From Nitrospirae bacterium CG2_30_53_67 (GTDB lineage Bacteria > CG2-30-53-67): a stretch of 11,938 nt of DNA. Below are positions 3,131 to 11,914 of the stretch, one piece after another. The DNA is taken from positions 1 through 11,938 of the forward strand of contig MNYV01000068.1 in NCBI GenBank assembly GCA_001873285.1, in the 5' to 3' direction. Each line of letters starts with the position of its first letter. Position 1 is the stretch's first letter. The position numbers and the translations under genes were made by a program. The notes under the pieces are model-generated. The model was not told the DNA's origin. It saw only the letters and a list, made by a program, of their open reading frames with translations, and ran no database searches.

Positions 3131-3142
3131 TTGTCTCCCTTA

Positions 3143-3174
3143 GTGGCCCTATTCGTAAATACGGTGGCATTCGA
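3143..3174. repeat. Half copy of the palindromic element, in the glgB leader
   Basis: This stretch matches the left terminus of the element at 3357-3517 with one mismatch over about 32 bases (GTGGCCCTATTCGTAAATAC, then GG-GGCATTCGA). It is flanked by TTA on the plus strand and stops at the point where the full copies continue into their inner hairpin arm. It lies between the predicted glgB transcription start (about 3177) and the glgB Shine-Dalgarno, so most of the glgB leader consists of this terminus. Confidence 0.8.
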
Positions 3175-3347: not shown

Positions 3348-3356
3348 AAGAATTAA

Positions 3357-3517
3357 GTGGCCCTATTCGTAAATACGGTCGCATTCGAGGGTCGTAGGGC
3401 GGCCTCATCTGCGTTCCGCTCCTTGCGGCGTACCAGAGGGTACGCCTCAGTCGCGCGCCTTGATAAGACCGCCCTACGACCCTCTCGGTACGTTACCATA
3501 TTTACGAACAGGACCAC
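3357..3517. repeat. Palindromic MITE-like element, full copy 1 (161 bp)
   Basis: The ends are imperfect inverted repeats of about 22 bases (GTGGYCCTRTTCGTAAATAY consensus), directly flanked by TAA on both sides (3354-3356 and 3518-3520). Inside is a long hairpin: GAGGGTCGTAGGGCGG (3386-3401) pairs with CCGCCCTACGACCCTC, and the middle holds a perfect 8-bp stem GGCGTACC-AGAG-GGTACGCC. No coding sequence is evident. Defined termini, short flanking repeats and several copies within 4 kb suggest a non-autonomous transposable element; a 3-base TWA duplication would fit mobilisation by an IS5-type (TNA-target) transposase, but none is in the window. A REP/BIME-type extragenic element is the alternative. 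Confidence 0.85.
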
Positions 3518-3559
3518 TAAACCGTTCATACCTTGATTTCATCTAAAAAGGAGACGACC

Positions 3560-3958
3560 ATGAGCCGGAAATCAGACTATGGCATTCAAAAAATACTCCC
3601 GTGCAGTTATGAGGAGGCCTTACCCAGGGTTAAAGAGGCCCTTTCCAAGCAGGGTTTTGGAGTCTTGACTGAAATTGATGTCCGGGCCGTTTTAAAGAAG
3701 AAGCTGGATATTGATTTTAACAAATATGTCATCCTGGGCGCCTGCAATCCCGCCATGGCCCATCAAACCCTCCAGGAAGAAATAGAGATCGGCCTTCTAC
3801 TCCCGTGCAATGTCATTGTTTATGAAAATGACATGAAACAGACCGTGGTTTCTGCAATCGATCCGGTAAAGATGCTTGAAATCGTAGAGAACCGGAATCT
3901 GACCCCGAATGCCGAAAAAGTCAAGCTCATGCTTGAGAAAGTCATATCATCACTATAG
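3560..3958 (+). CDS. DUF302 domain protein
   Basis: This 132-residue cytoplasmic protein is covered almost entirely by a DUF302 domain: S-Y-E-E-A-L-P-R-V-K-E-A-L near the N-terminus, G-F-G-V-L-T-E-I-D-V (32-41), Y-V-I-L-G-A-C-N-P-A-M-A-H-Q-T-L (56-71), I-G-L-L-L-P-C-N-V-I-V-Y-E (76-88) and D-P-V-K-M-L (101-106). The order and spacing match stand-alone DUF302 proteins. The ATG at 3560 is chosen because AAGGAGACGACC precedes it; an in-frame start at 3533 would add nine residues without a better ribosome binding site. DUF302 proteins are common in bacteria and archaea and form small alpha/beta folds, but no activity is established. Cys62 and Cys83 fall in conserved segments, although a redox or metal role is only a guess. 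It stands alone: a repeat element lies upstream and 246 bases separate it from the EF-G gene. Confidence 0.88.
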   Translation: MSRKSDYGIQKILPCSYEEALPRVKEALSKQGFGVLTEIDVRAVLKKKLDIDFNKYVILGACNPAMAHQTLQEEIEIGLLLPCNVIVYENDMKQTVVSAIDPVKMLEIVENRNLTPNAEKVKLMLEKVISSL

Positions 3959-3988
3959 ATCAAATCAAAATCGAATCAAAATTTTTAA

Positions 3989-4019
3989 TTGACATTTGTA
4001 TTTATTTATATTAATTTAT
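3989..4019 (+). promoter_or_regulatory. Candidate promoter region of the EF-G gene
   Basis: A perfect -35 hexamer TTGACA (3989-3994) is followed by a very AT-rich stretch with several imperfect -10 candidates; TAATTT at 4012-4017 has a 17-base spacer. The rest of the 246-base gap (3959-4204) is AT-rich and shows no clear terminator, repeat or riboswitch. A leader of about 180 bases would result. Confidence 0.35.
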
Positions 4020-4204
4020 TAGGATATTGAAAAATATGGAGTGATTTTCTGTTTTGGTATTGAGCCGTTTCCCTTCGAACAAAGGATGCCTCGAAATATC
4101 TTCCGGATTTTTCAGTAGACAACTTTAAAAATCAAGATGCCGCTATTTCAAAAGAGGATTTTTTCACTTTTCAGGAGATGTTTTAAAAACAAGAGGTAGA
4201 TAAC

Positions 4205-6289
4205 ATGACCAGTACGGATTCAAAGAAACTTCGAAACATCGGTATCAGCGCCCACATAGACTCGGGTAAGACAACCCTGACCGAGAGGATTTTATATTAT
4301 ACAAACCGAATCCATGCGATACACGACGTCAAAGGCAAAGACGGCGTAGGAGCGACCATGGACTTCATGGAATTGGAAAGGGAGCGCGGCATCACCATCA
4401 CTTCCGCGGCCACGCACTGCACGTGGAAAGACTCCTTCATCAACATCATTGATACCCCCGGACATGTTGATTTTACGATTGAAGTGGAACGCTCCCTCAG
4501 GGTGCTGGACGGCGCCATTCTCGTCCTTTGCGCCGTAGGGGGCGTACAATCCCAGACATTGACCGTGGACCGCCAGATGCGGCGTTATCATATCCCCCGC
4601 ATCGCCTTCATCAACAAGTGCGACCGGTCCGGCGCCAACCCTGAACGGGTGATCCAGCAGCTTAAAGAGAAATTAAATCATACGCCCGTAGCCATTCAGA
4701 TTCCCATCGGACTTGAAGCCGATCTCAAAGGAGTGGTGGACCTGGTGGCCATGAAGGCCTGCTATTTTGACGGGGCCAATGGAGAAAATCTCCGTATTGA
4801 AGATATTCCCGAAGAACTCAAGGACAAGGCCGAGGCAGAGCGCGAGAAGATGCTGGATACGGTTTCACTCTTTTCGGATGAGCTGACCGAAGCTCTTCTG
4901 GAAGGACATGTCACGGAAGAAATCATCCATGATGCCATCAGAAAAGGGACCCTCTCTCTTTCGATGATCCCGGTCTGTGTGGGTTCCGCGTATAAAAACA
5001 AGGGGGTTCAAACCCTGCTCGATGCCGTTACACGCTACCTTCCGAGTCCGGAAGACATGAACTATACGGTTCTGGACCTGGATCAGGATGAGAAGGAAAT
5101 CCCGCTGATCCAATCACCGGATGAGGCGGCCGTGGCTCTGGCTTTCAAGATCGAGGACGGCCGGTACGGACAGTTGACCTACATCCGCCTATACCAGGGC
5201 AGGATCGCAAAAGGAGACACCTTATATAACAGCCGCAACGGAAAGAAGTTCAAGGTCGGCCGGTTGATCCGCATGCATGCGGACAAAATGGAGGATATTG
5301 ATCTGGCCTCTTGCGGCGAGATTGTCGCCCTGTTCGGAATTGACTGCGCATCCGGCGACACCTTTACCGCAGACGGCATGAACTATGCTCTATCTTCCAT
5401 GCATGTCCCTGATCCCGTGATCAGTCTGATGGTGACTCCTAAGGATAATCAATCACAGGAGAACATGTCCAAGGCCCTGAACCGTTTCTGCAAAGAGGAT
5501 CCCACTTTCAGAAGCCGCGTGGACCCCGAAAGCAATGAGACGGTCATCTCCGGGATGGGAGAACTTCACCTCGATGTCTACATCGAACGCATGAAGCGTG
5601 AATACCATGTGGAGGTGGAAACCGGCATGCCTCAGGTGGCATACAGAGAGACCATCACGTGCAGGGCCGATTTCAATTACACGCACAAGAAACAGACAGG
5701 CGGCGCCGGGCAGTATGGCCGCGTGGCCGGATACATAGAGCCCTATCCTGACGAAGACTACCATTTCGAGAACCAAATCACCGGAGGGGCCATTCCCAAG
5801 GAATTCATTCCGTCCTGTGACAAGGGTTTTCAGGCATGCCTGAAACAGGGTAAACTGATCGGTTTTCCGATCACCCGGATTCAGGCCGTCATCAATGACG
5901 GATCCTCACACGCCGTAGACTCCTCGGACATTGCTTTCCAGCAGGCGGCCATCGGCGCTTTCCGTGAAGCCTATGCCAAGGCCAAACCGATCATCCTGGA
6001 ACCGGTCATGAAGGTCGTGGTGGAGGGGCCTTCCGAATTTCAGGGCTCCATTCTGGCGACACTGAACCAGCGCCGAGGCATCATCTCCTCAGCCACAGAG
6101 AACGGAGTCTTTTCGATCATTGAATCCGAGGTCCCCCTCTCCGAGATGTTCGGTTACTCCACGGTACTCCGGTCCGCCACACAAGGGAAGGCCGAATTCA
6201 CCATGGAGTTCGCCAGATACAAACCCGTTCCCCAGAGCCTTGCCGGGGAACTGATCAAAGAATTTTCATCTCAGAGAAAAACGGCATAG
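4205..6289 (+). CDS. fusA: Elongation factor G, mitochondrial EFG1/spdEFG1 type
   Basis: A 694-residue translational GTPase that moves tRNA and mRNA through the ribosome after peptide bond formation. G motifs: AHIDSGKTT (16-24), RGITI (61-65, switch I Thr64), DTPGH (83-87), NKCD (137-140) and GSAYKN (260-265). Domain II spans about 305-390, III about 405-480, IV about 481-600 with tip loop [10 protein letters not shown] (566-575, His569 at the position of the E. coli EF-G tip histidine), and V about 600-690. Full length, nothing missing. Ser20 in the P-loop (Ala in ordinary EF-G), the [23 protein letters not shown] region and [13 protein letters not shown] resemble mitochondrial EFG1 and the spdEFG1 group. 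In that group translocation and ribosome recycling are split between two EF-G paralogues, so an spdEFG2 partner is expected elsewhere. AGAGGT precedes the ATG by about eight bases. No rpsL, rpsG or tuf neighbours, so it is outside the classical str operon. Confidence 0.95.
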
Positions 6290-6306
6290 ATTCCCCTGTA
6301 TATTTG

Positions 6307-6315
6307 TGCTATACT
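6307..6315 (+). promoter_or_regulatory. Possible extended -10 promoter before the ATPase gene
   Basis: TGC followed by TATACT (6310-6315) fits the extended -10 pattern TGn-TATAAT with one mismatch. No convincing -35 is visible upstream, as expected for extended -10 promoters. It could give the downstream ATPase gene its own transcript; otherwise that gene, 88 bases after the EF-G stop with no terminator between, would be read through from the EF-G gene. Confidence 0.35.
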
Positions 6316-6377
6316 TTCTCACCAGTTTCTTTTTCCTTCCTTCACATGCCGGGAAGGTCCGGAAAGGAACGGGGAAA

Positions 6378-7088
6378 ATGCTGAAACAGGAGTTTATCTT
6401 GAAAAGTCCGATACGAATCCTGCAGAAAGCCACCCAAGGGGGATTGGATAAGGGAAATCTGGGTGTCTTCATGGCCCGGCCAGGGGTGGGAAAGACCGCC
6501 TGCCTGGTTCACGTCGCCCTGGATTGTCTTTTTAAAAAACAGAAGGTGGCCCATATCGGCATTGGAGAGTCCGTAGAGAAGATCCAGCTCTGGTATTCAG
6601 AGATCTTGTCGGATCTCTGCAAAACCTTCGACATGAAGGACCCTAAAAAACTCCATGAGGAAATCGAACAAAACCGGTTGATTCTTTCCTATGCGCCGGC
6701 GGCTTTCACGGTGAAAAAACTTGCGCAGGATCTGAAAGAGCTCGCGGAACAGGGCGGCGTGGCGCCGGAGGTCCTTTTAATAGACGGTTTTGATTTTCGA
6801 AACCTTGATTCCGGATGGGACACCCTTGCCGCATTTAAATACCTGGCTGCGGAACGGCGCATGGAAATCTGGTTCTCTGCTCAAACTGAACGTGATGCAA
6901 ACATGGACGGCCATGGAGCCATCCCTGCTCCGTGCCGTGACGTGGAAAACTTTTTTTCAGTCATTCTTTTTCTGGAGCCGACCGGCGACACCATCCACCT
7001 GAAACTCCTAAAGGACCATGATCACCCGATCAATCTGAAACTCCCTCTCAAACTCAACCCCAACACGCTTCTGCTGCTGGACGAATAA
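6378..7088 (+). CDS. RecA/KaiC/DnaB-fold P-loop ATPase of unknown role
   Basis: A 236-residue predicted cytoplasmic ATPase with a RecA-like core. Walker A ARPGVGKT spans residues 33-40, preceded by K-G-N-L-G-V-F-M as in KaiC/RadA/DnaB ATPases. A Walker B-like strand EVLLIDGFDF lies at 131-140, and WFSAQTER (165-172) fits the strand and polar sensor that follow. The C-terminus (L-K-L-L-K-D-H-D-H at about 208-216) resembles the substrate-facing end of KaiC-like domains. There is no zinc ribbon, second ATPase domain or transmembrane segment, so it is neither a complete RadA nor DnaB. I do not recognise a specific function. The start at 6378 is chosen because GGGG and AAGGA precede it and the conserved fold begins soon after; a longer frame from 6306 would add 24 poorly supported residues. 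It lies 88 bases downstream of the EF-G gene, same strand, and converges on the DUF4388 gene. Confidence 0.8.
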   Translation: MLKQEFILKSPIRILQKATQGGLDKGNLGVFMARPGVGKTACLVHVALDCLFKKQKVAHIGIGESVEKIQLWYSEILSDLCKTFDMKDPKKLHEEIEQNRLILSYAPAAFTVKKLAQDLKELAEQGGVAPEVLLIDGFDFRNLDSGWDTLAAFKYLAAERRMEIWFSAQTERDANMDGHGAIPAPCRDVENFFSVILFLEPTGDTIHLKLLKDHDHPINLKLPLKLNPNTLLLLDE

Positions 7089-7107
7089 AAAAAGCCCGGA
7101 ACCGGGC
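7086..7107 (-). terminator. Rho-independent terminator for leftward transcription
   Basis: On the minus strand GCCCGG-TT-CCGGGC (7107-7094) is followed directly by a run of seven T residues (7093-7087). The stem is short with a tight loop but the T-tract is excellent. The plus strand has only CGTTTG after the stem, so termination of the rightward ATPase transcript would be weaker. The natural client is the DUF4388 gene ending at 7436; two repeat elements now separate it from this terminator. Confidence 0.6.
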
Positions 7108-7146
7108 CGTTTGCCCCCGGTACAGGCCTCCTTCTCGCCCTGCTAA

Positions 7147-7256
7147 GTGGTCCTGTTCGTAAATAGGGTGACGTACCGACTTGTACTCGGTTTATCGGTA
7201 GAGGGTCGTAGGGCGGTCTCATCAAGACGAGCGACCGTATTTACGAATAAGGCCAC
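7147..7256. repeat. Palindromic MITE-like element, shortened copy (110 bp)
   Basis: It has both termini of the family (left GTGGTCCTGTTCGTAAATAG, right ending TTCGTAAATACGGTC on the opposite strand) and TAA on each side (7144-7146 and 7257-7259). Only one inner arm, AGAGGGTCGTAGGGCGG (7199-7215), is kept; the central hairpin and the other arm are missing and an unrelated 20-odd bases (about 7179-7199) replace part of it. It is therefore an internally deleted derivative that cannot form the full hairpin. Confidence 0.8.
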
Positions 7257-7259
7257 TAA

Positions 7260-7422
7260 GTGGTCCTGTTCGTAAATATGGTAACGTACCGAGAGTGCCG
7301 TAGGGCGGCCTCATCAAGGCGCGCGACTGAGACGTACCCCCTGCGGTACGTCGCAAGGAGCGGAACGCAGAGGAGGCCGCCCTACGGCACTCGAATGCGG
7401 CCGTATTTACGAATAGGACCAC
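7260..7422. repeat. Palindromic MITE-like element, full copy 2 (163 bp, inverted)
   Basis: This is the reverse complement of the family layout at 3357-3517, with roughly 90 percent identity by eye. It is flanked by TAA at 7257-7259 (shared with the shortened neighbour) and 7423-7425. Arms GAGTGCCGTAGGGCGGCC and GGCCGCCCTACGGCACTC pair perfectly, and the central stem GACGTACC/GGTACGTC is intact. Differences from copy 1 in the stems come in complementary pairs. It lies 13 bases beyond the DUF4388 stop codon, so leftward mRNA would carry the hairpin in its 3' leader. Confidence 0.85.
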
Positions 7423-7435
7423 TAAGCCTCTGAAT

Positions 7436-11725: not shown

Positions 11726-11780
11726 TCCATTCCTGATCATCACTTTTTAAGAATAATAGATCATCTCCAAAAGAGTGGGT

Positions 11781-11914
11781 GAAAACATCAGGGTTCAAGG
11801 GGTCAAGGATTCCAGGGTTCAAGTGGAGTGCTGAAAAGATCAGGGGTCAAGGAGTCAAGGGTCCCAGGGGTCAAGTGGAGTGCAAAAAAACATCAGAGGT
11901 CAAGGGCTCCAGTG
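11781..11914. repeat. Minisatellite, about 2.6 units of 51-52 bases
   Basis: Unit 1 (11781-11832) and unit 2 (11833-11883) align along their length, each reading GAAAA-ATCAGG..TCAAGG..TC..AGTGGAGTGC; a third, shortened unit runs 11884-11914. Within each unit GGGTCAAGG/GGGTTCAAG recurs at 9-10-base intervals, so there is a short period inside the long one. It begins 56 bases after the smc stop. No open frame or terminator is evident in 11726-11938. GGGGTCAAG-rich arrays of this kind are familiar between genes in deltaproteobacterial genomes. Confidence 0.75.

Follow-up and report, generated by a model that had tools for sequence, protein, structure and literature searches.

A palindromic MITE family of one uncultured bacterial family, with an excess of paired arm changes and signs of arm-to-arm copying

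Repeats in the window

The window analyzed here, 11,938 nucleotides of contig MNYV01000068.1 from Nitrospirae bacterium CG2_30_53_67, carries several copies of a short palindromic repeat. Copy A is a full-length element of 161 bp (GTGGCCC...GGACCAC; positions 3357–3517, plus strand; RNA-model match 3356–3518), delimited by its terminal inverted repeats (TIRs), its target duplication and its fold, and flanked by a TAA duplication, read from the sequence, at 3354–3356 and 3518–3520. Copy B, full-length at 163 bp, lies in the opposite orientation (7260–7422, minus strand; RNA-model match 7259–7423), next to copy C, a short, internally deleted element of 110 bp recognized by an RNA-model match at 7146–7257 and by its target duplication (7147–7256, minus strand). 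Copies C and B stand in tandem (7144–7425) with one TAA in common at 7257–7259 and with outer TAA duplications at 7144–7146 and 7423–7425, so that the target duplication of one probably served as the insertion site for the other. The 32-bp solo left end of a decayed copy is found upstream of glgB (3143–3174, plus strand), with a 97% match to query positions 4–36 at 3142–3174. The first-pass annotation had assigned its observation to 3386–7395, a span that covers unrelated genes; the elements themselves occupy only the four intervals of copies A, B and C and the solo end.

Copy A forms a single imperfect hairpin along its whole length, within which the inner stem is built from a left arm at 3387–3409 and a right arm at 3462–3484 (both plus strand), recognized as an inverted repeat and from the haplotypes of the family, with arm-homogenization sites at 3390 and 3392 and their partners at 3479 and 3481. 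RNA folding of 3353–3521 gave −89.7 kcal/mol on the plus strand (z −9.6) and −116.8 kcal/mol on the minus strand (z −14.5), and none of the shuffled controls of this interval folds as well on either strand. Each of copies A and B forms a single hairpin that is far more stable than the folds of shuffled controls. Elsewhere in the window, adjacent genes for DUF4160 and DUF2442 (Pfam) are found at 212–728 on the minus strand, a pairing which we take to be common and toxin–antitoxin-like, and direct repeats of about 52 bp, rich in ATCAGGGGTCAAGG, lie behind the smc gene at 11773–11912.

A MITE family inserted at C-TWA-G

To describe the family, a covariance model was built from 37 copies and searched against genomes. 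In the genome of origin (2.36 Mb) it gave 147 matches counting both strands, corresponding to about 75 places (about 70 to 75 copies); this copy number is a lower bound, since the element core is cut off at the ends of several contigs (for example G000 C138:1 and C6:1; G005 C8:1 and the end of C43) and the repeat thus breaks the assembly. The family is present in all six genomes of one GTDB family, namely its own and five relatives (three genera including its own), and the model found no matches in two class-mate genomes. Across the 41 genomes searched it is confined to this one uncultured bacterial family, with the exception of two weak matches in one distant genome. From the six genomes, 115 copies with both ends were extracted, 96 of which are full-length and were used for covariation; the sequence sampled comprises the surroundings of these copies and of candidate loci.

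The element starts with GTGGYCCTRTTCGTAAATAYGGT and ends with an imperfect inverse of it, and its TIRs of 23–30 bp are conserved across the 115 copies. Its length is mostly 161–165 bp, with internally longer or shorter variants of roughly 48–225 bp, and it is noncoding, with no open reading frame. The target duplication is a 3-bp TWA, concordant in 66 copies (TTA/TTA in 42, TAA/TAA in 24) and discordant in 1, and the bases outside it are mostly C and G, which gives C-TWA-G as the target. Only 1 of the 99 copies with both neighbors called lies within a gene, the others being intergenic; the neighboring genes are co-directional (41 plus, 31 minus), convergent (13) or divergent (13). In 27 of the 115 copies the junction between element and flank (C-TAA-G or C-TTAG) coincides with the stop codon of an adjacent gene, and gene 3' ends are closer to the element than 5' ends (median 38 vs. 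95 bp). A general role as intrinsic terminator was rejected, as the stem is not followed by a T-run. In genus g2, seven copies (L143, L147, L148, L151, L167, L168, and L084, from genomes G002 and G004) share flanks whose conservation reaches far past the element ends (left AGCCCGGATATTGCATGAG..., right TTGAAATATTTCAATATGTCTTCAGCCAG...); here the repeat therefore sits inside a larger repeat, itself amplified. Syntenic spacers without the element were found in the congener G001, but these are filled with other sequence and offer no clean empty site.

With TIRs, a target duplication, small size, many copies, no transposase gene and an intergenic position, these repeats are a MITE family, that is, non-autonomous DNA transposons. 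Bacterial MITEs such as Correia/NEMIS, ERIC and Nezha are likewise intergenic elements of 100–200 bp with TIRs, a target duplication, no transposase and a predicted long stem-loop transcript (PMC2229807, PMC10969869). Unlike these, the present family combines the TIR GTGGYCCTRTTCGTAAATAYGGT with a C-TWA-G target, has no match among the Rfam covariance models and belongs to one bacterial family; no named family matching this TIR and target was found here. No earlier description of the family was found in the literature searched, although its kind, the bacterial MITE, is known.

An autonomous parent with the same TIRs is usual for MITEs, if not strictly defining. Staggered-cut transposases of the DDE type, as in the IS5-type (IS1031 group) and PIF/Harbinger transposons, make 3-bp TWA/TNA duplications, and a 3-bp T(W)A target duplication is a trait of both groups, which the element shares; such a transposase is therefore implied by its TWA duplication. 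Unlike in those groups, the corresponding domains DDE_Tnp_4 and DDE_Tnp_1_2 (PF13359, PF13586) are absent from all six genomes, and the DDE_Tnp_1 genes lack the element TIR: it is missing at all eight DDE_Tnp_1 (PF01609) loci, and no TIR pair surrounds a transposase in 20 loci with unpaired TIRs, absences that count as weak evidence in such fragmented genomes. The element would then be moved in trans by a transposase cutting with a 3-bp stagger, none having been found in the six genomes.

Paired changes between the arms

Aligned in the same orientation, copies A (3356–3518, plus) and B (7259–7423, minus) are separated by 12 substitutions and, in the terminal loop, by a single 2-nt indel. Six of the 12 are partners in the stem and give three pairs, at alignment columns 35/128, 37/126, and 73/92. 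This agrees with the first-pass annotation, which had noted six paired changes among roughly a dozen differences and a central loop free to change in length, and which had quoted the arm sequences of both copies correctly: GAGGGTCG at 3387–3394 with CGACCCTC at 3477–3484 in copy A, and GAGTGCCG/CGGCACTC in copy B. Its reading of the outer arm as two paired changes needs to be revised, however: both arms do differ as quoted, but not by pair-for-pair replacement. The ancestral outer arm is mismatched, GAGTGCCG/CGACCCTC, as in most copies in all six genomes; at columns 35,37|126,128 this mismatched state, TC/AC, is seen in 62 of 88 copies and in all six genomes. Copies A and B carry opposite derived repairs of it, each rewriting two bases together. 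The GT/AC state, with the left arm rewritten, arose in three or more backgrounds, and TC/GA, with the right arm rewritten, in two; single-step intermediates of both repairs are nearly absent. At pair 73/92, sister copies show A.C on the plus strand, equivalent to G.U on the minus strand, as a passing state.

Across the 96 full-length copies we counted 28 double changes from one Watson–Crick pair to another. Under a phylogenetic null, in which the substitutions of each branch were redistributed over columns by column rate, 4.0±2.1 doubles are expected, with a maximum of 12 among 200 simulations, and sliding the partner by 1–3 columns leaves 1–5 doubles compared with the 28 in true register. Cells changed on both sides number 135 vs. 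58±5 when the 3' letters are shuffled, a value not equalled in any of 500 shuffles, and on all five measures every one of 500 column shuffles falls short of what is observed. A smaller set of 88 copies gave 20 doubles where 3.2–4.2 are expected. The excess of paired changes is thus real, and it withstands null models of the kind called for in the first-pass annotation. The parsimony tree behind these counts is imperfect and the copies are mosaic. The RNAalifold model folds poorly on the plus strand because A.C mismatches are not paired there, and the minus-strand register was used instead; as this register itself favors minus-strand wobbles, a strand-neutral register was adopted for the strand asymmetry, which weakens there from 17:4 to 17:6 sites.

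Several footprints accompany these paired changes. Neighboring mismatches were restored jointly on the same arm 11 times (2.0±1.6 expected, maximum 7 in 60 simulations). Terminal branches hold 24 of the 28 doubles, which are thus mostly private to single insertions, and strictly private compensated pairs comprise 12 Watson–Crick against 2 mismatched combinations. All 12 contain at least one letter that is unique, at its column, among the sampled copies, and 7 of them are of transversion types, unable to pass via G.U. The compensated fraction, 7 of 40 transversions and 5 of 20 transitions, reveals no enrichment for transitions, and strictly private wobbles have no strand bias (8 vs. 7). Same-arm repair of several bases, repair in both directions, and the lack of a bias toward the wobble path are marks expected of template switching.

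Origin of the matched arms

Two-way repairs of several bases, transversions, private pairs and the lack of a recent strand bias together point to copying from one arm to the other. We think that the family is probably a MITE moved in trans by a transposase with a 3-bp stagger, with arms kept matched mainly through such arm-to-arm copying; as judged from its footprints in the sequences, the copying step is the most likely source of the paired changes. The whole element being an imperfect palindrome, a mutation would strike one arm, and DNA synthesis would occasionally copy the opposite arm, by template switching on an extruded hairpin or by an equivalent conversion within the element, rewriting, from left to right arm or the reverse, one or several adjacent bases in a single step. 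The outcome would resemble compensatory substitution without selection on the folded product. Arm homogenization by template switching is an established type of mutation in Escherichia coli and eukaryotes (PMC7202029, PMC8604942), and has been proposed to maintain RNA hairpins (PMC8794818). Quasipalindrome-associated or template-switch mutation, as presented in the same three sources, likewise homogenizes several bases of inverted-repeat arms; these precedents come from a reporter gene or from rRNA and microRNA phylogenies, whereas here the process would be read from dispersed MITE copies. Literature on covariation in MITEs or on template switching in transposon arms yielded general precedents only. 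An observation that speaks against arm copying is that the older wobble pairs are uneven between the strands, which a strand-neutral copying process does not predict.

This unevenness is an argument for selection on a folded RNA or single-stranded DNA of the minus strand, with single mutations compensated often through G.U, a possible explanation to which we give a minor share of the probability. In all but two of the 115 copies (113) the more stable fold is that of the minus strand (mean −99.8 vs. −84.9 kcal/mol), wobble-dominated sites on the strand-neutral register number 17 on the minus and 6 on the plus strand (p=0.035), wobble events number 126 and 75 but are not independent (event sign test 30 to 17, p=0.08), and the intermediate at pair 73/92 is the one that G.U on the minus strand would supply. 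Hairpins of bacterial MITEs are also known to act in transcripts, as when Correia/NEMIS elements are cut by RNase III (PMC2229807, PMC10969869). Against this, most of the energy asymmetry goes back to a single ancestral state that the copies inherited, and strictly private wobbles are so evenly split that the minus-strand bias must be old and not ongoing. The orientation of the element does not follow the direction of the genes (41 vs. 31 co-directional, 13 convergent, 13 divergent), and in a test of transcription direction the numbers of wobble types among the co-directional classes were suggestive, with no significant difference. Compensation is not enriched for transitions, the element has no Rfam match, and with compensation mostly private to dispersed insertions, every one of them would need to be under selection in its own right. 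The first-pass annotation had proposed selection on, or a copying mechanism through, a folded single-stranded form: a copying process via folded DNA fits best, and selection on the fold is not the best-supported cause. We consider it doubtful that the family carries a functional RNA or single-stranded DNA in the form of its minus-strand hairpin, arm copying then doing no more than provide the paired variants.

About equally doubtful is the view that gene conversion between copies and subfamily mosaicism alone made the paired pattern, with neither a process within the element nor selection. The blocks CTCATCTGCG/CGGATCAAAG and CCTTGATG/CGGAGATG are indeed shuffled among backgrounds, and as the copies are mosaic such conversion may contribute alongside arm copying; but each of the 12 private compensated pairs holds at least one private letter, and therefore none of the sampled copies could have donated that arm.

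Transposition of a folded single-stranded intermediate, as in REPIN/RAYT or IS200/IS605-like systems, would also select for pairing, and is in our judgment very improbable. The whole element does form a hairpin, and all six genomes encode Y1_Tnp (HUH) proteins, with two to five matches per genome and several of more than 300 aa in an open frame. However, a true 3-bp target duplication, concordant at 66:1, largely refutes it, since single-strand insertion by HUH enzymes is not known to make one, and the eight Y1_Tnp loci checked are not flanked by the element and contain no element TIR, save one nearby solo end at position 1319 of locus L255. REPINs are likewise short hairpin elements in which compensatory changes on both arms are common, so that changes of this kind in bacterial hairpin elements were already reported (PMC3116915); unlike in REPIN/RAYT systems, the present element has a target duplication, a linked RAYT is absent and Y1_Tnp is present but unlinked. 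Chance or an assembly artifact is scarcely credible: the assemblies are fragmented, those of two or more relatives probably being metagenome bins, and repeats are prone to misassembly, with several contigs ending in the element, yet the phylogenetic, slid-register and shuffle nulls are all exceeded, the pattern recurs across six assemblies and private letters cannot stem from chimeric joining of sampled copies.

If selection on the minus strand were at work after all, it would be reflected in the wobble bias that the whole family has retained in three genera. Covariation is widely taken as proof of a functional RNA fold. In this family, some 100 dispersed copies of one long imperfect palindrome exhibit strong and significant covariation together with the marks of arm-to-arm copying, which calls for caution when covariation tests are applied to mobile inverted repeats. 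The family also constitutes a natural data set for measuring how frequently the arms of palindromes are homogenized in bacteria.
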